This document shows, one piece after another, positions 3 through 51,405 of a stretch of DNA of 52,045 bases. The notes below the pieces were generated by a model, which saw only the letters and a program-made list of their open reading frames with translations, was not told the origin of the DNA and searched no databases. Each line of letters begins with the position of its first letter. Position 1 is the first letter of the stretch. Origin of the DNA: Methanothermococcus sp. SCGC AD-155-C09 (GTDB lineage Archaea > AGJL01 > Methanococci > Methanococcales > Methanococcaceae); contig JAHEQB010000034.1 in the NCBI GenBank assembly GCA_019561555.1, forward strand, positions 4,703-56,747. The letters are read 5' to 3'. Both the position numbers and the translations under genes were made by a program.

Positions 3-2858
3 TCTGATGCAGATGGCTACCTATTCAATAATGTAACCCTTAATCAGGCAACAATCTATTCAGTGACAGTTAATCCATCAGTTATCTACATTCCTGATAA
101 CTACTCAACAATTCAGGAGGCCATAGATGCTGCCAATCCTGGAGATGAAATAATAGTCAAAGATGGTACATATTATGAGAACATAATTATAAATAAGAGT
201 ATAACCTTGAAATCTGAAAACGGACCGGAAAATTGTATTATTAATGGAAATAATTCTGGGAATGTGATAGTAATTGATGCAGATGGAGTTACAATTGATG
301 GATTTACAATTAGGAATTCTAGTAGTTATGGAGTAGGTATTGAAGTGAAATCCAATAATAATATTATAACAAATAATAATATATTGGACAACAACAAAGG
401 TATTGAATTAGATTATTCAAGCAATAACAATATTAACGGTAATAACATATTGAACAATGGAAGGGGTATTGAATTAGGATATTCAAACAATAACTGTATT
501 ATTGGGAACAACATATCATCGAACGACTGGAGAGGTATATCTTTACGAAATTCAGACAACAACAGCATTAGTAATAATGATATATCAAACAACTGGAGAG
601 GCATTTACTTATATTATTCAAAAAATAACAGTATTAGTGGTAATAATATTTTGGACAACAATAATGGTATTGAATTAGATAATTCAAACAATAACAGTAT
701 TAGTGGTAATAATATAACATCGAACGATTGGAGGGGTATTGAATTAGATAATTCAAACAATAACAGTATTAGTGGTAATAATATATCAGACAACGATTGG
801 AATGGTATTTATCTGAAGTATTCGAGTAGCAACAATATTAAAAATAACAACTTTATTAACGATGGTATCTTCATCAAAGGCCAGAAACTGGAAGATTGGA
901 TCCATACAATAGAAAACAATACCGTTAACGACAAGCCCCTTTACTACTTCAAGAATGTAGTAGGAAGCAATATTCCAGAAGATGCAGGTCAGGTAATTCT
1001 TGTAAATTGTAGTGATATGGCAGTTGAAAACTTGAAAATAAATAATACAGATGTTGGAATTACTATTGCTTATTCATCCAATATTACTGTGAAAAATAAT
1101 GCACTATCTAACAACACTGATGGTATCTGTTTATTGTATTCAAACAATAACAGTATTGGTAGTAATAGCATATTGAACAATAATAATAATGGTATATATT
1201 TGGAGTATTCAAGCAATAACAGTATTGGTAGTAATAACATATTGAACAATAATAATGGTATCCATTTTTCATGGGATTCAAATAATAACAGTATTAATGG
1301 TAATAATATAACATCAAACGATTGTAAGGGTATCTATTTAGAGTATTCGAATGGTAACACAATTAAAGATAACAACTTTATCAACGATGGTATTTTCATA
1401 GAAGGTTGGATGATAGAAAACTGGATTCATACAATAGAAAACAACACCGTCAACGGCAGGCCCCTTTATTACTTTAGGAATAAAGTAGGAAGCAATATCC
1501 CAGAAGATGCAGGTCAGGTGATTCTTGCAAATTGTAGTAATATGATAGTTGAAAACCTGAATATATATAATACAGATGTTGGAATTACTATTGCCTATTC
1601 ATCTAATATTACTGTAAAAAATAATGAAATTTTAAACAATAGTGAGAGTGGTATTTATTTAAGTAGTTATTCCAGTAATAACAATATTAACAGTAATTAC
1701 ATATTAAGTAATAAAATAGGTATTTACTTGAGCTCTTCAAGCAATAATAGAATCTACTTAAACAATTTCATAAACAACAGTCAAAATGCTCAATCTTCTT
1801 ACTCAAGAAACAACATCTGGAACTCACCTGAGAATATAACCTACGCCTACAACGGCACCCAACATACAAGTTATTTAGGAAACTACTGGGATGATTACAA
1901 TGGAAACGATACAAATGGAGATGGAATTGGGGATACCTCATATAAAATAGACAGAAAAAATACTGATCAATATCCTTTAATCAAAACTTTTGATTGCTAC
2001 ACAATATTAAAACCAAACCTAAAAATAGTAAATATTACCACAAACACTCCAATATACAACAATACCCTAACTGAGATAAACCTAACAATAACCAACAACG
2101 GCAATGAAAACATAAACACCACATTCCCAGTGGAGATAACAATTATAAATGCCTCAGGAGATGTAGTATATACCAACACAACTGATATTAGTAGATTGAA
2201 TGCAGGGGCAGATGAAATTATAACCTTCTATTGGACTCCTGAGAACACTGGAACTTACAACATCACAGTATATGTAGATCCAGGAAACACCATAGATGAG
2301 TCAGATGAAAGGGATAACAATATCACCTTATCAAATGTAGAAATATGTGGATTTGAAAATGAATCCCCAACATTAAACAACAATAGCGAAATTATCACCC
2401 TTAAGAAAGGATGGAACACCATATCAATACCTCACAGGGCAAATATATCCTTCAGTAATCCAGAGGCAGTAGGATCCATAATAACCTACTACAACAATGA
2501 CTGGCACAATGAATCTAACTTGGAACCACTCTATGGATACTACATATACTGTAACAATGATACCAACATGACTGTCAAATACATTACTCCAGAGGAACCT
2601 ACAGCACCACCAACAAGACCTGTATTCAAAGGTTGGAATCTCGTTGGAGTAAACCCTGGAAAAAATGATACCAACGGAGTAAAACTAATAGACTTCGTAC
2701 TCCCTGTAGAGGATTCATGGATAATGATACTTGATCCAGAAAATAATAATCTCTATACTAAGAATGATTATCTATCCAATGTAATACTTAATCCTTATGA
2801 TGTATATTGGATGTATAACAAAGAAAATGATATATTGCCAGGAAGAAATTTGAATTAA
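3..2858 (+). CDS. NosD-like right-handed parallel beta-helix surface protein with CARDB-type domain; 5' end lies outside the window
   Basis: Frame is open from base 3 (SDADGYLFNNVTLNQATIYSVTVNPSVIYIPDNYSTIQEAI...), so the listed GTG at 63 is internal. Many 'NNNSISGNNI/GIxLxxS' beta-helix coils, then a CARDB-like stretch (NLKIVNITTNTPIYNNTLTEINLTITNNGNENI) and a C-terminal 'GWNTISIP...GWNLVGVNPG' region. Confidence 0.85.
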   Translation, partial: SDADGYLFNNVTLNQATIYSVTVNPSVIYIPDNYSTIQEAIDAANPGDEIIVKDGTYYENIIINKSITLKSENGPENCIINGNNSGNVIVIDADGVTIDGFTIRNSSSYGVGIEVKSNNNIITNNNILDNNKGIELDYSSNNNINGNNILNNGRGIELGYSNNNCIIGNNISSNDWRGISLRNSDNNSISNNDISNNWRGIYLYYSKNNSISGNNILDNNNGIELDNSNNNSISGNNITSNDWRGIELDNSNNNSISGNNISDNDWNGIYLKYSSSNNIKNNNFINDGIFIKGQKLEDWIHTIENNTVNDKPLYYFKNVVGSNIPEDAGQVILVNCSDMAVENLKINNTDVGITIAYSSNITVKNNALSNNTDGICLLYSNNNSIGSNSILNNNNNGIYLEYSSNNSIGSNNILNNNNGIHFSWDSNNNSINGNNITSNDCKGIYLEYSNGNTIKDNNFINDGIFIEGWMIENWIHTIENNTVNGRPLYYFRNKVGSNIPEDAGQVILANCSNMIVENLNIYNTDVGITIAYSSNITVKNNEILNNSESGIYLSSYSSNNNINSNYILSNKIGIYLSSSSNNRIYLNNFINNSQNAQSSYSRNNIWNSPENITYAYNGTQHTSYLGNYWDDYNGNDTNGDGIGDTSYKIDRKNTDQYPLIKTFDCYTILKPNLKIVNITTNTPIYNNTLTEINLTITNNGNENINTTFPVEITIINASGDVVYTNTTDISRLNAGADEIITFYWTPENTGTYNITVYVDPGNTIDESDERDNNITLSNVEICGFENESPTLNNNSEIITLKKGWNTISIPHRANISFSNPEAVGSIITYYNNDWHNESNLEPLYGYYIYCNNDTNMTVKYITPEEPTAPPTRPVFKGWNLVGVNPGKNDTNGVKLIDFVLPVEDSWIMILDPENNNLYTKNDYLSNVILNPYDVYWMYNKENDILPGRNLN

Positions 2859-2953
2859 TTTATTGATATAAAATATTTTTTAATTTTTTTTAGATTTTTA
2901 ACTACATTTAAGTAATTCTATATTCTACCATAACTACATATTACGGTGAATTT

Positions 2954-4453
2954 ATGAAAAACACTATAAAAATATACATATTAATCTTTACCTTAGGTCT
3001 TCTATTAGTAAATTGTACTTTAGCCAGTGATGCTACTCCCCCTCAATTGCCTGCCCAATACTATGGAAAGGTTATTTCACCAAACCCCTTAAGTGGATAT
3101 ATTGAAGTAAAAATAGGGGATAAAAACTACAGTTCCATACCTTTAGTAAATAACACCTTTGGAGGCCCTTCCTATTTAGATGGAAAGTTGTTAGTAAATG
3201 CACCAGGACAGGATGGCAAAGAGGTTAAGTTTTATCTAAATGGCAGTATTTCACTTAACAATTCTGATAATATATATTATAGCAAAGGAGATGTTAGATT
3301 TATTAAATTGTACTACAACATAGATATTGAAAAATTGGAAATTCTAAAAGAAATTGTAGTGTTGGATGAGGGAAATATAACAGATATCATCGATATTAAT
3401 AATGTATCAACCAATAATATAAGTGGTTTAGAAGTATTGGAGATACCCTTAAAAAGTATTAGAGATACAGTAATCATTCCAAAAGTTGTTAATGTGACTT
3501 TAAAAAAAGAAAATATTACTAAAATTATTGAAAACATAAACAAAACCCTTGAAGTGGCAAAGGGACTTAAAAGTCAGAAAATAGAAAGTTTATCCGATGT
3601 AAATGATACAATAGAAAAAATAGTATATAATATAACCCCAATATTGGCCTCAAACTTCAGCATAGCAAACAAAAGCAAAGAAGAACCTAAGGAGGTAAAT
3701 AATAAAGTAATATCCACAATATCCTTTAAAGCAGTGAACACATCAAAGAAAGGATTTGTAATAGTTAGAATACCAATAGGTAACATGACTGTTGAAAATA
3801 TTACAATATATAATGGAACTTATACTGCAATTTTGAATGAAAATAATAATATTAGCAAAATAGGATGGTACAGAATACCTATTGATGGAGTATTGGAGAT
3901 AACAGTAATAGAGGATCCCGAAATAAATGTTACACTATCCGCAAAGTTACCTGATAAGGGTAAAAGTGCCACATCCAGAACACCATCAGGAGGTGACAGA
4001 TCCTCACCATCAAGAAATCTCTATCCAGATGTAGCCCCAGATATTAAATCAGAGAAAATAAAAGAAATAGTACATAAAGCAAAAGTAATGGTAGGTTCAG
4101 AGATAGATAAGGATCTCTCAGCAAAGGACTTAAAAACAACATTAGACCTAACAAATAAACCCCTTGAAATAAATGAGGATTGTATCCTTGTAGGAGGACC
4201 AGTGGCAAATCCAATTGTAAATAAATACCTCTGGGCATTCCCAGTCAAAGTAACTAACGACTACCCAGGAAAACATAAAGGAGTAATTCAAATACAGAAA
4301 ATTAATGGACATACGGTTATCCTCTTAGCAGGCTCCGACAGATGGGGTACCAAGGCTGCCGTGGAGTATTTCAAGACCTTAGAGGATCTTCCAGATGGAC
4401 CTATCTTTGTAGAATGGAAAGATGAAAAGGCTTTTAAAATAAATAAACCTTAA
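2954..4453 (+). CDS. Secreted S-layer-related protein
   Basis: Signal peptide (MKNTIKIYILIFTLGLLLVNCTLA). C-terminus 'ILVGGPVANPIVNKYLWAFPV...VILLAGSDRWGTKAAVEYFKTL' resembles the methanogen S-layer C-terminal domain. GGTGAATTTATG ribosome-binding site. Confidence 0.7.
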   Translation: MKNTIKIYILIFTLGLLLVNCTLASDATPPQLPAQYYGKVISPNPLSGYIEVKIGDKNYSSIPLVNNTFGGPSYLDGKLLVNAPGQDGKEVKFYLNGSISLNNSDNIYYSKGDVRFIKLYYNIDIEKLEILKEIVVLDEGNITDIIDINNVSTNNISGLEVLEIPLKSIRDTVIIPKVVNVTLKKENITKIIENINKTLEVAKGLKSQKIESLSDVNDTIEKIVYNITPILASNFSIANKSKEEPKEVNNKVISTISFKAVNTSKKGFVIVRIPIGNMTVENITIYNGTYTAILNENNNISKIGWYRIPIDGVLEITVIEDPEINVTLSAKLPDKGKSATSRTPSGGDRSSPSRNLYPDVAPDIKSEKIKEIVHKAKVMVGSEIDKDLSAKDLKTTLDLTNKPLEINEDCILVGGPVANPIVNKYLWAFPVKVTNDYPGKHKGVIQIQKINGHTVILLAGSDRWGTKAAVEYFKTLEDLPDGPIFVEWKDEKAFKINKP

Positions 4454-4486: not shown

Positions 4487-4996
4487 TTATAGTTACACAT
4501 AAACCTCTTAAATCTATAATCTATAAAATAAACAATATAATAAAAATAATAGAAAAAAATAAGATATTTAAGATTATGAACCTCCATAATGCCAATCCTC
4601 TAAGGATTACCTTTTTTTTATGCTTAGGAATATCTAAGGAAAAATAAGATAAGATTTTTACTTATTATATGATCTATTTTCTTAGACACTTTCAAAGTCT
4701 CAGATTCTTTTATTTTTATTATTTTTTAACAATATATTTTTTATTGGATTCTAATGAGAATTAGAATTGTTTATTTTTAGTATAAATAATTTTATTTAGG
4801 ATTATAATATTTTTTATTATTTTATAGTATGTTGCAAATCTAAAAATATAAAAAAAATAAAAATTTAATAAAATAGAAAATTAAAAGATAATTAAAACAA
4901 AATTAGATAATTTAAGGTTTTAAAATATATCTTTAAAATCTATCAAATGTTCTAAGTTTCTTAGAATACATAAGTTAATGTTATACTTTAACCATA
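4487..4996 (-). repeat. MITE-like intergenic element, subfamily B
   Basis: TATAGTTACACATAAACCTCTTAAATCTATAATCTATAAA ... TATGCTTAGGAATATCTAAGG ... AATGAGAATTAGAATTGTTTATTTTTAGTATAAATAATTTTATTTAGGA ... CTTTAACCATA. Confidence 0.55.
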
Positions 4997-13444: not shown

Positions 13445-13732
13445 TATAGTAAAACATAGCATTTTAAATTTATATGAATATACTAATCCCATAATTAGGA
13501 TTTTCTGTATCTCCAGTGCTTAGGGGAGTAAGGGGAGGAGAGATAGGGATATGGAATTTCTACTTTTTTATTTTTCTTTATGTCCCTAAGTATTATTTTT
13601 TTCCTTTTATCTTAAAATTTAGATTATTCTATTATTTTTTATTATTTTATTTTTTTAATTTTTAATTTTTTTAAATTATTTTTTATTTTTTAAAATTATA
13701 GATATTGGGTTTAAGAAATTATGTTCTTAATA
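13445..13732 (-). repeat. MITE-like intergenic element, subfamily A
   Basis: TATAGTAAAACATAGCATTTTAAATTTATA...CTCCAGTGCTTAGGGGAGTA...GGAATTTCTACTTTTTTATTTTTC...GGGTTTAAGAAATTATGTTCTTAATAT. Confidence 0.7.
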
Positions 13733-17280: not shown

Positions 17281-17628
17281 TTAAGTATGGTCTTAAAAAA
17301 ATAAAAATTAAAAAATAATTAAAATAATTAAAAAACCTTATAAAAAATTAAATTAATAATAAAAAATAATTAAAATAAAATAGAATAATTTAAGATTTTA
17401 AAATACCTAAGAAAGGAGTAAAACATAAAAAGTAAAAATCTTTCATTGTTTTCCCTAAGATATTCTAGCACTGGGAGAGCAGGGAGAATCCTTTGACAGA
17501 ATAAGTTATTAACTTCATCAGGCCAAGATAGAGACTTAAATTATTCCATTTATTAATATTTTATCCCTTTATTATTTTTATTATCATGTTATACATTATA
17601 AGTTTAAGATACTATGTGTTTGATTATA
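17281..17628 (+). repeat. MITE-like intergenic element, subfamily B
   Basis: AAATACCTAAGAAAGGAGTAAAACATAAAAAGTAAAAATC ... TCTAGCACTGGGAGAGCAGGGAGAATCCTTTGACAG ... AAGATAGAGACTTAAATTATTCC ... TAAGTTTAAGATACTATGTGTTTGATTATA. Confidence 0.55.
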
Positions 17629-23578: not shown

Positions 23579-23759
23579 AAGAGTATAAAAAAATTAAAAA
23601 TTATGGATAAAAGATAAAAAATAAATAAAAAGAATAAAATATAATCCTAAAAAAATTATTTATAGTAAAAAAATTTTGATTCTCAATAATAGTTTATAAA
23701 AATAATAGTTTATAAAAATAATAATTTTAAAAATAAAAAAATAAATAATAATCAAAATG

Positions 23760-24195
23760 TAATAGAATAACCTAAGATCTAAAAATACCTAAGAAAGGTA
23801 GAACTCTCTTTACCTATATTTCCTCCTTGATGCACCTAAGAACTGGGAGAAAAAGGTAGAATCATAAGAATATATTATGAAGGCTATATTAATCTAAGGT
23901 AGAGGGACTGACAGTAATCCTCTTTTTTAAAATTTTATTTCTTATATTATATTTATTATTAATTATTTTTAGTATATCTTTTAGGTAAAAATTGTAGGTT
24001 AGGTTAAAGTTAAGGTTATATGGCTATGATATATAAAAAAAGTTTATAAAAATAATAAAGTAATTATATATAGAAGTAAGACCTATAACAGAGATTGCCA
24101 CATAAGGTTATAGTAAGATTGGATTCTACTTTCCTTTTATGTTTTAAAGTTCTTAGGAATAGATCATGTATTATATACTTAACAACAATTAAAGT
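23760..24195 (+). repeat. Subfamily B element, composite
   Basis: CCTAAGATCTAAAAATACCTAAGAAAGGTAG ... GCACCTAAGAACTGGGAGAAAAAGG; TTTTAAAGTTCTTAGGAATAG near 24150 matches the tail of the 26797 copy. Confidence 0.45.
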
Positions 24196-42997: not shown

Positions 42998-44491
42998 ATG
43001 GAGTTAGAATTCAAAAAATGCAATGACTTCTGGATAGATAATGGAGTGGAGAATCTATACAAAATCTTCAGGAAGATAGAAAAGTATCATCCAGACATAG
43101 AATCCAAAATAAAACCTGATAAGGTAATTTTGCAATTTGAAGATATTAATAAGTTTGTAGATAAAATGGCAGAAATAGTTGAAGAGTTGAAATACGAAAG
43201 ACTATTAATTGAAGAAAAGGATAAAAAGACAGGAGTTAAAAAAAGGGTAAAAAAGGATTACATACTGATACAATATGGTTCAAAGGATAGTAAGGGAGTA
43301 AATACATTAAAAGAAAAGATATATACCAATCCAAAAGATGAACTTAATAAAATATTTAACCTTATAACTACCAAACCAAAAAGTTCAAAATCCAATAAGG
43401 TTTGTCTATGCTGTGGTGAAGAATTTTCAAAGGAATATCAAAATATGAAACAGGCCTCTTATCCCATGACCACAAAAATAAAAAGTTTGGGGGGAATAAG
43501 GGGAAATGCTGAAAATTATAAAGAAATTTGTCCAAAATGTTATTTGGCTGGAATATTAGAATGGGCTGATGATTATTTATATAAATATCTTGGAGATAAA
43601 TCCTATATCTTTATTCCATATAATTTCAATTTAGTAAAATTGAATGAATTCAAGGATAAATATAGAATATTTTTAAATAATAGCAACAGATATTGCAATA
43701 TTGGAGAAAATAGAGAGATATATGGTAAGTATTCAGCATTGTTAAAATTTTATGAATATTTGATTGATAATGCCAAATTAAATGAAAATCCCAATATTGT
43801 ATGGCATATTATAACTGTCCCAAATAAGGATATAAAAAACATTAAAGTGGATAAATTTGAAATGATGGGGGAAATATTTAGAGTAATGAAGGTAACTATT
43901 GGGGAATTAGATGGGGACAGTTTATATGGGGATTTTTTAAATGGGATCTATATTAAAGAAGAGAGAAAAAATAAAATTGAATGGGAAGGTACAAATGAAC
44001 TTCGAGAGGGGATATCAGAGGCTTTCTTAACTAATAATTTTAGAAAGTTTGTTAAATACTTTATTCCAAAAAATAAGCATTATATTATATTACATAATGA
44101 TGCAAGGAAAATCTTAGAAAAAATTATTATAAATTGGAGGTGGATTAAATTGGGAATTCCAAAGGAACATTTAGAAACCATTAAAAAATCAGGGAATGTA
44201 ATTGCAGAGGTGTGCATACATAACAACCTAAACCTACTTTATAAATTGGACAAGGTAAGAACTTCTGAAGAATTTTGGAGTGTTATGAGGGAAATAAGTA
44301 GAAAAATGATTTCATTAGATGCTGAAAACACAAAATATATTAATCCCATGGTATTGGGTGATTTAATATCTTTAGTAAAAGAATATGAAAAGGATTGGAA
44401 AGAACTGAGGGATTTGTTGGAGATATATTCCTGTATGTATATCTCAATTAAACAATATAAACCTGAAGATAATAACAATGACAATAAATAA
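42998..44491 (+). CDS. cas8: CRISPR-associated Cas8 (Cst1/Cas8b-like large subunit)
   Basis: First gene of the cas cluster, 497 aa, zinc-finger-like CLCCGEEF...CPKC, directly upstream of a Cst2/DevR-type Cas7. Call rests mainly on context. Confidence 0.7.
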   Translation: MELEFKKCNDFWIDNGVENLYKIFRKIEKYHPDIESKIKPDKVILQFEDINKFVDKMAEIVEELKYERLLIEEKDKKTGVKKRVKKDYILIQYGSKDSKGVNTLKEKIYTNPKDELNKIFNLITTKPKSSKSNKVCLCCGEEFSKEYQNMKQASYPMTTKIKSLGGIRGNAENYKEICPKCYLAGILEWADDYLYKYLGDKSYIFIPYNFNLVKLNEFKDKYRIFLNNSNRYCNIGENREIYGKYSALLKFYEYLIDNAKLNENPNIVWHIITVPNKDIKNIKVDKFEMMGEIFRVMKVTIGELDGDSLYGDFLNGIYIKEERKNKIEWEGTNELREGISEAFLTNNFRKFVKYFIPKNKHYIILHNDARKILEKIIINWRWIKLGIPKEHLETIKKSGNVIAEVCIHNNLNLLYKLDKVRTSEEFWSVMREISRKMISLDAENTKYINPMVLGDLISLVKEYEKDWKELRDLLEIYSCMYISIKQYKPEDNNNDNK

Positions 44492-44505: not shown

Positions 44506-45405
44506 ATGAAAAAGGGAATAAACATTGTATGGTTGACAGAAGTTGATTTAACAAATTTAAATTCTGGAGAGGGAGAGAGTAACTATATAGATGTTAAAAA
44601 ATACAAAAAAGATGGCATAGAATATCCCTATGTATCTGGCCAGGCTATGAGGCATTATTTTAGGGAGGCTATTAGGAGAATAACTGATAAATATATATGT
44701 GTTCCAGATGATAAGGGAGAAACTTGTGGGGATATTGAAAAATGTATTGGCTGTGATTTATTTGGTTTTATGCTACCAAAAAAAGGTAGTGGTTCCTCTG
44801 TAAGGGTTTCGCCACTAAAGGTATCTCCTGCCATTGGATTATTATCTTTTGAAGATAATTCAACAGTAGATTTCTTAACAAGATCAAAATATAAAGAAGT
44901 TGGTGAAAAAACAGGGGGAGATATTGTAAATATTGAAATTGGAACCAATATCTATAAATGCGGCATCTCAATTGATATTGAAAGAATTGGCGGGGAAGAG
45001 GAAATAAATGATGAAAAAAGAGAACTTTCCATCGAACCTAAGGTAGAGGATAATGAAAGAAAAGAAAGAATAAAATTAATATTAAATGCAATTAGGTATT
45101 TATCAGATTATTCAAAGCAGGCTCGATTACTAACTGATTTTACGCCGGATATATTGGTTGCATCATATCAGGATAATTATTCTCATAGATTGCAGAAAGC
45201 ATTGGAGATTGATGAAAATAGAAACTTAAATGTAAATAGGTTAAAGGAAATACTGGAGGATGTTGGGGAATATGGGGATATATATTTCGGAATGATTTCT
45301 GGAGTAATAAATAATGAAGATGAAGTTAAGAATATGTTGAAGGATTTAGAAATTGAAGTTTTAACTCCAAACAAGGCCTTAGAGAAAGTTATGGACTCAT
45401 TGTAA
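44506..45405 (+). CDS. cas7: Cas7 (Cst2/DevR family)
   Basis: [57 protein letters not shown] 44506 behind AGGTGATATTT. Confidence 0.88.
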
Positions 45406-45407
45406 AT

Positions 45408-45694
45408 TATAGTCAAGAACATAATATTTCTTAACCATATTTATTATAAAAAAAATAAAAAAATTAATAAAAATAATAATTTAAAAATTAAAATAATAAA
45501 ATAATCTAAATCTTAAGATAAAAGGGAATATATTATTTAAAAAAAAATAAAAAAATGTACTTAAAGAGTAGATATCCTCCATCACTACCTTCCCTCCTCT
45601 TACACCCCTAAGCACTGGAAGTGCAGAGGAAATTCTTCAAGCATTAGAATTATTATGCCCATAATAAGTTTAAAAAGTTATATGTTTTACTATA
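45408..45694 (+). repeat. MITE-like intergenic element, subfamily A, between cas7 and cas5
   Basis: TATAGTCAAGAACATAATATTTCTTAACCATA ... CACCCCTAAGCACTGGAAGTGCAGAGGAAA ... ATAATAAGTTTAAAAAGTTATATGTTTTACTATA. Begins 2 nt after the cas7 stop. Confidence 0.8.
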
Positions 45695-45755
45695 TTTATT
45701 CTTTTATTAATTTATTTTATTATTTATTTTTATTATTTTATTTTTTGGTGAGGAT

Positions 45756-46433
45756 ATGGCATTGCATGGATTTAAATTCAAAATTGAAGGGCTATATTTC
45801 AACACATTTAGAAAACCACTTTCAAATAGTTTGATTTTAACATTTACAATACCCTCATTTACTGTAATTCGGGGATTAATATCAAATGCACTGGGCCTTA
45901 AAAGGGATGATTTAACTGTTCAGGAATGGAATGTAAAAATAGGTATTCTTCCACTATATTTTAAAAATAAATCAAGAGAGTTGGCAAAGATATTAAAATT
46001 AAAAGGAACTGGAAAGAATTATTTAAAGGATTATAATTCATCACCAATGTTTAAGGAATTCCTTATAAATCCTTCCTATGAGATATATATAATTGGAGAG
46101 GACATGGAAAAAATAGATATAATAAATAAAGCACTTTTGAATCCACGGCGACCTCTCTATCTCGGGAGTTCAGATGAACTATGTGATTTAGAGGTTTCTG
46201 AAATTGTTAATGTGGAAACTGACTATCATAAAAATTTTAATTGTGTAATAGAGGGACTATATGAAAATTGTATTGTTGAGAGAATTCCTTATAAATTAAT
46301 AAAAAAGGATAAGGCAGGGAAAAAATGGGATAGTTTATTTAAAACAGTTTCAGTACCCTTGGAAGATATTAAATTAAAGGATAATGAATTGGAATGCTTC
46401 AAATTTGATAATAAGTATATTTTAGCATATTAA
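45756..46433 (+). CDS. cas5: Cas5
   Basis: FKIEGLYFNTFRKPLSNSLILTFTIPSFTVIRGLISNALGL matches the Cas5 N-terminal pattern; position between cas7 and cas3. Confidence 0.82.
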   Translation: MALHGFKFKIEGLYFNTFRKPLSNSLILTFTIPSFTVIRGLISNALGLKRDDLTVQEWNVKIGILPLYFKNKSRELAKILKLKGTGKNYLKDYNSSPMFKEFLINPSYEIYIIGEDMEKIDIINKALLNPRRPLYLGSSDELCDLEVSEIVNVETDYHKNFNCVIEGLYENCIVERIPYKLIKKDKAGKKWDSLFKTVSVPLEDIKLKDNELECFKFDNKYILAY

Positions 46434-46446
46434 GGGGGTGGAGTAG

Positions 46447-48879
46447 TTGGATAGAAGTATTGGAAAGTTATGTTTAAAGGAAGGGGAAAAATACTTCCAA
46501 ACATTAAATGGCCATACAATTGATGCTTTAAAGATACTTAAACAATATATTGAGACAAATAAATCTGAAATTGAGGAATTTTGTAATAGATGGGGCATGG
46601 ATAAGTCTAAACTATATAAAAATTTATTTTTAATGGTTTATTTACATGATATTGGAAAATTAACAAAAGATTTTCAAAAAAATATTAAAAACAATAAAAG
46701 ATCAAATAAATTTCCACATTCTTTTTATGCAATGGGTATATTGGACAATGTGAATGTAGATGATTTTGTAAAACTAAGTATACTGGGACATCATTCTCAA
46801 CTATATGATAGACTATACCACAATTATCAGACTATCAAAAAAACCGAATATTTGATTGAGGACATAAACAATTTTTTAACTAACTCCTACAATGTTTATA
46901 ATTATCTTAATTTTAATAAATATTTTGAATTTAATGGACTTAATACCATTAATATCAATAGGAGTGCAAAACCTAAAATAGTGAGGGATATTCCCAATAA
47001 TAAATTAAAGTCCAAATACAGTGGGGATAATTTATTAAATAATCAAAAAGAAGATATTGTAAAAATAAAAAGTATATACTCCTTCATGCTTTCAATATTA
47101 AAAACCTCCGATATATATTCCAGTTATAATTTTGAAAGATATATCTTGGAAAATGATTTAAAATGCAATTATTTAGAGGATATACTAACAAACCCGGAAC
47201 AATATATTCCCAAATTAAAAAAGGAATATAATCCTAATTTTAAGTTATACAAATATCAAGATGAGATAAAGAACAAAACTAAAAAATTTCAGATACTATT
47301 TGCGCCCTGTGGAAGGGGAAAAACTGAGGCCTCCCTTTTATGGGCCTTTGAGATAATGAGAAAATACAATAAAAATAAAATAATATTTGCACTGCCCACT
47401 CAAACAACGAGTAATTTTATGTATGATAGATTAAAAAAGGAGTTTGGTAAGGAGAATGTTGGAATATATCATGGAATGAGTTCTGTTAAATTAAAAAATG
47501 ATAGGAACAATGAAAATATTAATAATTTTGATGACATGGACTTAGATGATGAATATGAGGATTATGAAACCACATTAATAAAAGAAGTTGGCGATGAGAA
47601 TTTTAAGGGCAAAACATTCCATAAACCTATTAACATTACCACAATTGATCATTTGATTTATTCCTTTATCCATGGTTATAAGGAATCTGATTTTGCCCTG
47701 GGAAATATCCAAAATGCTTTGATAATTTTTGATGAGGTTCATTACTATGAAAAAACAACATTATCCCATCTCTTTGAATTATTCAACATATTAAGGGAAA
47801 TGGACATCCCACATCTTCTAATGTCTGGAACAATTCCAAAATTTTTAAATGAAAAGATAGGGTATGATACAATTGTTGATGTTGAAGGTTTAGAATATAG
47901 GCCCTTTAAAATGTTTTTTAAGGAACAAGATATATTTAATGAAGAGGTTTTTGATAGCATTATAGATAATTATTTTAATGGAAAAACTCAATTTATAGTA
48001 TTAAATACAGTTTCAAAATCAAAAAAATTTTACAAAACACTAATGGATAAATTGGAGGATTACGATATTAAAGATCCAAATGTGATATTATACCACTCCC
48101 AATTTACATATAACGATAGAAACAGAAAGGAAAAAGAAATTAAAGAAAAATATAATAATAAAAATAAAAAACCATTTATTTTAATTGCTACGCAAGTTAT
48201 TGAGATCTCATTGGATATTTCTGCAGACCTAATGTATAGTGAAGTTGCACCAATTGATGCCATTGGACAGAGGGCCGGAAGATTGAACAGAAAGGGAAAA
48301 ATTCCTGATGGAATATTGAATATATATTTTTCAGAGAAAAATATACCCTACGATAAAGAATTAATGAAAAATACCGAAGATATTTTAAAAAAATACAGTG
48401 GTAATGCAATATCCTATGGAGATATTAAAAAAATGTGTGATGAACTTTATACAGATTACAATTTAGAGGATAGTAATTTAAAAAGATTTTTTGATAGCAA
48501 TACATTATTTGGACACTCACATAAGGATATAAGATATAGCGAAGAGGAGGGTAAATTCTTTAAAGTAAGGGAAAATGGACATTTAAAGATTGATGTTATT
48601 CCAAATAGCATTTATAACAATGAGGAGAGTAGGCTGAACATAGAGCATATTGTAAAATATCCCTATTATAGGTATAAAAATGAGGTAGAAAATGGCGAAT
48701 TAATACATTTTGATGTGGTTTATAAAAAAGATAAATTGTATGTTATTTGTATGTATGATTATTCCTATGAATTTGGATTCCATGATAATGTTATAGATAA
48801 GGATGAGGAATTTATTGATGATGACGAATTTTTAGAGAATATAAAAAATAGCAACTCAATAGATAATGATATTTATTAG
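46447..48879 (+). CDS. cas3: Cas3 with fused HD nuclease and helicase
   Basis: HD motif YLHDIGKLTKDFQ; Walker A FAPCGRGKTEASLLWA; DEVH (IIFDEVHYYE); IGQRAGRLNRKG. TTG start behind GGGGGTGGAG. Confidence 0.93.
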   Translation: MDRSIGKLCLKEGEKYFQTLNGHTIDALKILKQYIETNKSEIEEFCNRWGMDKSKLYKNLFLMVYLHDIGKLTKDFQKNIKNNKRSNKFPHSFYAMGILDNVNVDDFVKLSILGHHSQLYDRLYHNYQTIKKTEYLIEDINNFLTNSYNVYNYLNFNKYFEFNGLNTININRSAKPKIVRDIPNNKLKSKYSGDNLLNNQKEDIVKIKSIYSFMLSILKTSDIYSSYNFERYILENDLKCNYLEDILTNPEQYIPKLKKEYNPNFKLYKYQDEIKNKTKKFQILFAPCGRGKTEASLLWAFEIMRKYNKNKIIFALPTQTTSNFMYDRLKKEFGKENVGIYHGMSSVKLKNDRNNENINNFDDMDLDDEYEDYETTLIKEVGDENFKGKTFHKPINITTIDHLIYSFIHGYKESDFALGNIQNALIIFDEVHYYEKTTLSHLFELFNILREMDIPHLLMSGTIPKFLNEKIGYDTIVDVEGLEYRPFKMFFKEQDIFNEEVFDSIIDNYFNGKTQFIVLNTVSKSKKFYKTLMDKLEDYDIKDPNVILYHSQFTYNDRNRKEKEIKEKYNNKNKKPFILIATQVIEISLDISADLMYSEVAPIDAIGQRAGRLNRKGKIPDGILNIYFSEKNIPYDKELMKNTEDILKKYSGNAISYGDIKKMCDELYTDYNLEDSNLKRFFDSNTLFGHSHKDIRYSEEEGKFFKVRENGHLKIDVIPNSIYNNEESRLNIEHIVKYPYYRYKNEVENGELIHFDVVYKKDKLYVICMYDYSYEFGFHDNVIDKDEEFIDDDEFLENIKNSNSIDNDIY

Positions 48880-48889
48880 GAGAGACATT

Positions 48890-49408
48890 ATGGATCTAAT
48901 TAACACATTTGGGGAATTAAAGATTAGAGGTACCCAAATAAATTATTATTTTATATGTAAAACAAAACTCTACCTCTTTTCAAAAAATATTAGACTGGAA
49001 AGGGATAGTGATATTGTAAATATTGGAAACTTTATCCATAAAAATACCTATAAAAAAGAAAATAAAGAACATATAATAGGAAGTATTGGTATAGATTTTA
49101 TAAAAAATAAACATGGAACTTTGGAGATTCATGAGGTAAAGAAATCTGATAGAATGGAGAGGGCCGATACCTATCAACTTCTGTATTATCTCTATTATTT
49201 AAAAAATATGGGAATAAATGCAGTAGGTATTTTAAACTATCCATTAAAAAAGAAAATAAAAAGAATAGTCCTAACTAAGAAAAATGAAATTGAATTAATA
49301 AATATAATTAAAAATATTAATAATATTATAAAAAGTAATAAACCAATAAAGCCAGAGAGAAAAGGTTATTGTAAAAAATGTGCATACTATGAATTCTGTT
49401 TTTCATAA
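48890..49408 (+). CDS. cas4: Cas4 (RecB-like exonuclease)
   Basis: Cysteine near the N-terminus (YFICKTKLYL), IHEVKKS motif, QLLYYLYYL, CKKCAYYEFC cluster. ATG 48890 behind GGAGAG. Confidence 0.88.
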   Translation: MDLINTFGELKIRGTQINYYFICKTKLYLFSKNIRLERDSDIVNIGNFIHKNTYKKENKEHIIGSIGIDFIKNKHGTLEIHEVKKSDRMERADTYQLLYYLYYLKNMGINAVGILNYPLKKKIKRIVLTKKNEIELINIIKNINNIIKSNKPIKPERKGYCKKCAYYEFCFS

Positions 49409-49455
49409 AGAACATTAAAAAAATAAAAAAATATTTTTAAATTAGAGGGAGGGGA

Positions 49456-50421
49456 ATGAAAACCAATAAGTACATAAATTCAGATGGAAAACTAATAAGA
49501 CATGAGAATACCATTTACTTCATAAGCAAAGATGGAAAAAAATTACCAATACCTGTGGAAAAAATATATTCTATTTATAGTTATGGTAGTTTGTCCTTTA
49601 CATCAAAGGTTATTAAATTACTCTCCAAATACAATGTTCCCATTCATTACTTTGGAAGATATGGCGATTACATAGGGACCTTTTATCCAAGGGGGAATAA
49701 TTATTCAGGAAAGGTTATTGTCAAACAATCAGAGTATTATTTAGATGGAAATAAGAGAATTTATTTAGCAAAGAAGTTTGTGGAGGGAAGTATAAGAAAC
49801 ATGTATAAAAATCTAAGTAGGTATAAAATAGATTTCCCAGTTGAGAAGGAATTGGAAAAATTAAAGGACTCAAAAACAATAACTGAGGTAATGTCTGTTG
49901 AGGCAACAGTGAGAAACAACTATTATGGGAACTTAGATAAAATATTTAACAATTTTAAGTTTGAAAAAAGGAGTAGAAGGCCGCCTCATAACGAAATAAA
50001 TGCACTTATTAGTTTTGGAAACTCCCTTTTATATTCTGGAGTTATCTCCGAAATATTCAACACTCATTTAAATCCATCGATTTCTTACCTTCATGAGCCA
50101 TTTGAAAGACGATTTTCCCTTGCATTGGATATTGCAGATATTTTTAAGCCACTTTTAGTAGATAGGTTAGTTTTCTACTTAGTAAATAAAAATGTACTTG
50201 ATGAAGGACACTTTGAGAGGGACCTAAAATCCTGTCTATTGAATGAGGAAGGGAGAAGGATATTTTTAACCTATTACAAAAAAAGACTGGAAAAAACTAT
50301 AAAACATAGGAAGTTGAACAGAAAAGTTTCCTACCAAAGACTTATAAGGTTGGAGTGCTATAAACTTCAAAAGCATATCTTAGAAATGGAGAATTATGAA
50401 CCCTTTGTTATCTGGTGGTAA
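49456..50421 (+). CDS. cas1: Cas1 integrase
   Basis: [109 protein letters not shown]. Confidence 0.96.
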
Positions 50422-50434
50422 AAGGAGGCATAGT

Positions 50435-50698
50435 ATGTACGTAATAATTGTTTATGACGTAGGGGTTGAACGAGTGAATAAAGTAAAAAAGTTTTTAAGG
50501 AGATGGTTAAATTGGGTACAGAATAGTGTCTTTGAGGGGGAGTTAACAGATGCAGAATTTTTGACAGTTAGAGAAGGAATTAAAAACATTATAGATAGTG
50601 AATCAGATAGTGTAATCCTCTTTAAACTTAAAGATAGGAGGTTTATAGATAGAAATGTATTGGGTATTGATAAAAACTCAAGGGAGGATATATTATGA
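50435..50698 (+). CDS. cas2: Cas2
   Basis: MYVIIVYDVGVERVNKVKKFLRRWLNWVQNSVFEGELT. ATG 50435 behind AAAGGAGG. Confidence 0.95.
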   Translation: MYVIIVYDVGVERVNKVKKFLRRWLNWVQNSVFEGELTDAEFLTVREGIKNIIDSESDSVILFKLKDRRFIDRNVLGIDKNSREDIL

Positions 50699-51405
50699 GA
50701 ATAAAATTGGAGTTTAAAACTGAAAAAAATACAGTGATTCCCTTTAATCATCAGTATTTCCTTGCCTCTGCAATATACAATGTGTTAAGTAGGGCAAATG
50801 AGGAATACAGTGAGAAACTACATACCCATCCTAAATACAAATTTTTCACATTTTCCCTGTTGAGTATTCCCAATAGGAGGGTAATAGAGAAAAGAGGCAT
50901 TGTTCCATTAGATGGACGTGTATTTTTACATGTTTCTTCGCCAAATGATGAGTTTTTGAAAAATTTTGTAGATGGAATATTTGATTGCAAGGTTATAAAC
51001 ATTAATGGCATAGAATTAATACCAATGAACATGATAATTAAAAAAATCCCTGAGGATTTTGATACCTTAAAAACAATATCTCCAATTTATTTAAAAACCA
51101 TAATTGAAAGGGATGGAGCAAAAAAAGTACATGATTTACTCCCAAACAATTCAAAATTTTATGAGAATTTTAAAAATAATTTAAAGAAAAAATATGGGGC
51201 ATTCTATAATAAGGAGTGCAATTTAGATTTTGACTTTGAGGTTTTAAAGTATAAACCCAAAAGGGTAAAAATTAAAAATACCTTTTGCAGATGTTCTGAA
51301 ATGGTTTTTAAGGTTTATGGAGATTATGATTTAATAAAATTTGGCTATGAGTGTGGTTTTGGAGAGAAAAATTCCATGGGTTTTGGGATGGTTGAGGTTG
51401 TTTAA
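50695..51405 (+). CDS. cas6: Cas6 CRISPR RNA endoribonuclease
   Basis: MRIKLEFKTEKNTVIPFNHQYFLASAIYNVLS; C-terminal glycine-rich loop CGFGEKNSMGFGMVEVV. ATGA overlap with cas2. Confidence 0.93.
   Translation: MRIKLEFKTEKNTVIPFNHQYFLASAIYNVLSRANEEYSEKLHTHPKYKFFTFSLLSIPNRRVIEKRGIVPLDGRVFLHVSSPNDEFLKNFVDGIFDCKVININGIELIPMNMIIKKIPEDFDTLKTISPIYLKTIIERDGAKKVHDLLPNNSKFYENFKNNLKKKYGAFYNKECNLDFDFEVLKYKPKRVKIKNTFCRCSEMVFKVYGDYDLIKFGYECGFGEKNSMGFGMVEVV

Follow-up and report, generated by a model that had tools for sequence, protein, structure and literature searches.

Short mobile repeats that settle within operons are known from other prokaryotes. The MITE Chunjie of Geobacter uraniireducens, about 235 bp long, lies in a phosphate-uptake operon whose structure is, to go by the title of the original report, undisturbed by it (Chen et al. 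2008, via PMC10969869), and archaeal MITEs have been listed for Sulfolobus, Halobacterium, Haloquadratum and others (PMC10969869). MITEs within operons and in archaea are thus already known; for the Methanothermococcus family described here, no report was found in the papers searched. We analysed a stretch of 52,045 nucleotides from Methanothermococcus sp. SCGC AD-155-C09 (referred to here as the window), in which a repeat separates cas7 from cas5. We consider it very likely that this repeat belongs to a non-coding MITE family of IS630 type that has expanded in the lineage, and that the copy was presumably moved by an IS630-family transposase and is probably tolerated with read-through of the operon.

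The cas7-cas5 gap and the repeat that fills it

The cas genes lie on the plus strand of the window in the order cas8b-cas7-cas5-cas3-cas4-cas1-cas2-cas6 and, together with the accompanying array, make up a type I-B CRISPR-Cas operon. The operon comprises cas8b (42998-44491; PADLOC Cas8b, E = 9e-178), an intact cas7 (44506-45405; Cas7/Cst2/DevR, type I-B), an intact cas5 (45756-46433; Cas5b) and a close-packed set of cas3, cas4, cas1, cas2 and cas6 (46447-51405), all of them intact; no decay was seen in the cas genes. The CRISPR array lies 3' of these genes, from about 51779 (482-4361 in locus L060), and contains 58 near-uniform repeats (GTTAAAATCAGACCATTGTGGGATGGAAAT), of which 46 are identical and most others differ by one change. 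Its distal dozen repeats were seen to end in AAC in place of AAT. When the spacers were compared with the MITE and with IS630, only low-complexity matches were returned.

The original prediction drew attention to a 350-bp gap between cas7 and cas5 in an otherwise tightly spaced operon, and ascribed it to the insertion of a repeat of about 287 bp, starting 2 nt past the cas7 stop codon. The geometry proved to be as described: 350 nt separate the end of cas7 (45405) from the start of cas5 (45756), the remaining cas junctions overlap or span at most 47 nt, and the repeat, identified by its conserved ends, core and length, occupies 45408-45694 in the same plus-strand orientation as the cas operon, measuring 287 bp with the TA at each end included (body 45410-45692). 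That the repeat was inserted is likewise upheld, both by its IS630-type MITE anatomy and by a relative, G033, with a cas7-cas5 gap of 41 nt that lacks it.

The repeat opens with TATAGTCAAG at 45408 and closes with ACTATA at 45694, its ends reading TATAGTCAAGAACATAAT... and ...ATGTTTTACTATA. The left terminal inverted repeat (TATAGTCAAGAACATAATATTTCTTAAC; 45408-45435, plus strand) belongs to the same sequence family as the ends of IS630 transposons, and the right one (TTTAAAAAGTTATATGTTTTACTATA; 45669-45694, plus strand) represents a variant that we term the type 2 right end. In most copies of the family, the ends TATAGTCAAGAACATAAT... and ...TTATGTSYTTKACTATA are mutual inverted repeats; the type 2 end of the cas copy is weaker, with 4 mismatches over 17 positions. 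Between its ends the repeat has a left half rich in A, a pyrimidine tract and the conserved core CTAAGCACTGGAAGTGCAG (45609-45627, plus strand), which includes a small hairpin (GCACT/AGTGC). At 287 bp and with no internal ORF of at least 80 aa, the cas copy falls within the range of short non-coding MITEs (below about 600 bp), and well-bounded copies of the family have a median length of 301 bp. The TA at 45408-45409, the presumed target dinucleotide, has its partner at 45693-45694. In 66 well-bounded copies, TA is found almost without exception at either outer end, although in such AT-rich DNA a 2-bp duplication is indistinguishable from a site preference, and no target duplication longer than TA was detected at the ends of these 66 copies.

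The element-free cas operons of relatives, a comparison suggested with the original prediction, were found, and their layout differs from that of the window. In G033, the closest operon relative, which belongs to a sister genus in the same family (amino acid identity 90% for cas7 and 80% for cas5; about 83% nucleotide identity), the 41-nt gap occupies the orthologous site, and in four more distant relatives homology to cas5 starts about 21 nt past cas7. Since the gap in relatives is short and lacks the element, the copy at cas7-cas5 is, on this sequence comparison, a derived insertion, the exact pre-insertion sequence not being fixed at about 83% identity. In the window, the counterpart of the G033 spacer (ATATATTATTTTATTTCTTTATTTTATTTTTTGGTGATGGT) is the U-rich stretch 3' of the element (45695-45755, plus strand), a native cas5 leader with five runs of four or more T and a ribosome-binding site (GGTGAGG). 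As G033 has this leader without the element, the U-rich leader is judged to be older than the insertion. The cas5 gene of G033 (L057, reverse strand) was also seen to carry 66 extra in-frame bases after its start, flanked by two CATTG repeats; they extend the N-terminus by 22 aa that the cas5 of the window lacks.

An expanded MITE family and its candidate IS630 partners

The MITE family is expanded in this Methanothermococcus genome. The core CTAARCACTGRAAGTGCAG has 192 matches in the 1.73-Mb genome (both strands, at most 2 mismatches), spread over many contigs, against 0 for a reversed-pattern control, and by our estimate the family makes up about 3% of the genome. A slightly longer form of the core has 8 matches within the window (at most 3 mismatches) versus 0 in shuffles. 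Core matches number 12, 8 and 1 in three other Methanothermococcus genomes and 0 in the remaining 32 genomes of the order; among the genus relatives compared are Methanothermococcus okinawensis isolate SZUA-1385 and Methanothermococcus sp. SCGC AD-155-M21.

Eight further copies or relics, some of them truncated, were noted in the window, with cores at 13524(-), 16166(-), 28677(-), 30449(+), 31912(+), 35051(+), 41548(+) and 42582(-). Elsewhere, some gaps (in L018, L014, L004, L006 and others) hold two or three copies, always in one shared orientation. Often a full-length type 1 copy (..CCTTGACTATA) comes first and a type 2 copy (..TTTTACTATA) truncated at its left end comes next, an arrangement suggestive of nesting or tandem growth. 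A second AT-rich repeat (..TTTAAAATACCTAAGAAAGG..), which has parts in common with the MITE and lacks the core, occurs in the window at 4877-4938, 17355-17416 and 23737-23798. In two related genomes, elements with nearly the same ends and a different interior (..CTCCAGTACTCAGTGTAGTCCAGGGAATA..; L068, L069 and L072 in G028, L073 and L074 in G029) constitute a sister MITE family; neither genome has a detectable IS630 DDE_3 transposase.

The end sequence of the MITE also bounds IS630-family transposons of the same genome, which are candidate autonomous partners. One of these (L085 902-2015; 1114 bp) contains two overlapping ORFs, 159 and 181 aa long, with matches to NF033545 (IS630 family transposase) at 9e-28 and 1.8e-36, and to DDE_3 at 9e-28. 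MITE-type ends also flank L090 768-1882 as well as decayed copies, L065 1089-2197 among them; altogether, about seven copies of the IS630-family transposase, full or decayed, are found elsewhere in the genome, which is the only one of 12 genomes of the genus with a DDE_3 transposase. The division of the transposase into two overlapping ORFs with the HTH and DDE parts (L085 989-2010, and partly so in L088) perhaps reflects programmed frameshifting or decay.

Because its inverted-repeat ends, TA and end sequence are common to IS630 transposons, the cas-gap repeat is best read as a non-autonomous MITE of IS630 type, and from the shared ends we infer mobilisation by the IS630 transposase. An IS630-family transposase encoded elsewhere in the genome would recognise the shared terminal inverted repeats, and insertion would have taken place at a TA within the short U-rich cas7-cas5 spacer. 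The MITE interior shows no visible derivation from the IS630 transposons found. An IS6-like parent was also considered, in view of a 1.25-kb stretch on contig 76 of G028 (L070 177-1430) that has the same ends and decayed DDE_IS240 (IS6/IS240-like) fragments; the IS630 copies of the MITE's own genome fit better, and the G028 stretch is possibly a nested insertion.

The conserved core is GC-rich and has a small hairpin, amid DNA that is very AT-rich, and on this ground the repeat could be taken for a structured non-coding RNA or a riboswitch-like regulator instead of a transposon. This appears exceedingly improbable, as RNAalifold found no conserved fold across 137 aligned copies, an Rfam search of the window at the gathering score returned 0 matches, and, once copies are anchored on their ends, the core is no better kept than the neighbouring A-rich segment; moreover, the inverted-repeat ends are held in common with a transposon. 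A tRNA search likewise found none.

Strand bias, U-tracts and transcription of the cas operon

Orientation was assessed across about 410 kb of stretches around copies, in which 143 copies could be placed relative to neighbouring ORFs. The cas copy had been said to lie in the orientation seen upstream of other plus-strand genes, and this agrees with the family at large: 54 of the 73 copies between co-directional genes are sense and 19 antisense. As copies in multi-copy gaps are not all independent, a gap-level test was used that allows for shared orientation; it counted 41 gaps with sense copies only against 14 with antisense copies only and 0 mixed (p = 0.00036).

The two strands of the element differ in their content of U-tracts, with averages per copy of 1.5 tracts of four or more T in sense versus 12.4 in antisense; the cas copy has 1 U4 tract in sense versus 10 in antisense. 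In Methanococcus maripaludis, a member of the same family, termination efficiency is set by U4 tracts, which are recognised by aCPSF1 (PMC8716108). Transcription termination thus offers what would be the best explanation of the sense bias: because antisense U4 tracts are many and U4 is a Methanococcus terminator, antisense copies between co-transcribed genes would be subject to purifying selection.

A strong sense bias between co-directional genes might also be expected if the element served as a promoter, or as a 5' regulatory leader, with transcription of cas5-cas3-cas4-cas1-cas2-cas6 restarting there, uncoupled from cas8-cas7. Internal start sites occur in 53% of M. maripaludis operons (PMC10450193), some other prokaryotic MITEs, such as Correia, carry promoters (PMC10969869), and the right end of the element contains weak TATA-like matches (GTTATATG and ACTATATT; 6/8). 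We nevertheless regard this as unlikely. A search for a TATA box specific to the element gave no strong match (best 6/8 to TTTATATA), and TATA-like words of equal score are found throughout the native spacer too; the distance from core to next gene ranges from below 100 to above 700 nt, with no fixed promoter spacing; and terminator avoidance would account for the sense bias through known biology. It is very unlikely that the MITE family has taken on the role of a regulatory leader on the sense strand in this archaeon, with the cas copy setting the ratio of cas8-cas7 to the cas5-cas3-adaptation genes.

The insertion lengthens the untranslated spacer RNA from about 65 to 350 nt, raising the possibility of a polar effect in which cas5 and downstream expression is reduced and interference weakened. 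In M. maripaludis, internal terminators reduce downstream genes in 38% of operons, and the stoichiometry of an operon is disturbed when an internal terminator is inserted (PMC10450193). However, the cas copy has a single U4 tract in sense, the cas genes are undecayed, the 58-repeat array is near-uniform and native U-tracts before cas5 are already present in the element-free relative, so that a polar insertion seems rather unlikely. Because this U-rich tract exists in that relative, any internal attenuation could predate the insertion.

A tolerated MITE insertion is the reading that we prefer. Since its sense RNA is A-rich, with almost no U4-tract terminators, the insertion would be tolerated and the cas operon would probably still be read through, with a small effect on cas expression. 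The original prediction had offered either a promoter in the element or altered Cascade stoichiometry; with no conserved fold, strong TATA box or fixed spacing, neither gained support, and the alternative named alongside them, a neutral spacer, emerges as the most likely. Judged from sequence features, the cas copy seems to be a mostly harmless insertion and not a new CRISPR switch; it may have some activity as a promoter, or a modest effect on polarity or stoichiometry.

Comparison with known mobile elements

In this thermophilic methanogen, a MITE family of IS630 type has expanded, and its copies show a clear strand bias within co-directional gene pairs. The bias offers a natural way to test how U-tract termination influences the sites at which archaeal mobile DNA can settle. 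For CRISPR biology, the case mainly warns against taking every large gap in a cas operon for a regulatory one. As in this genome's IS630 transposons, and hence like IS630-family insertion sequences (IS630-Tc1-mariner group), the cas copy has terminal inverted repeats and a terminal TA; it differs in being 287 bp long, in coding for nothing and in having an interior with no visible origin in these transposons. It resembles Chunjie, as that element is summarised in the review cited above, in being a MITE inserted within an operon, whereas the host of Chunjie is bacterial and its sequence and operon are different. With the archaeal MITEs listed so far, the family shares its short, non-coding, inverted-repeat, multicopy and intergenic character, but stands apart in its unusually many copies for the size of the genome and in its strong sense bias.
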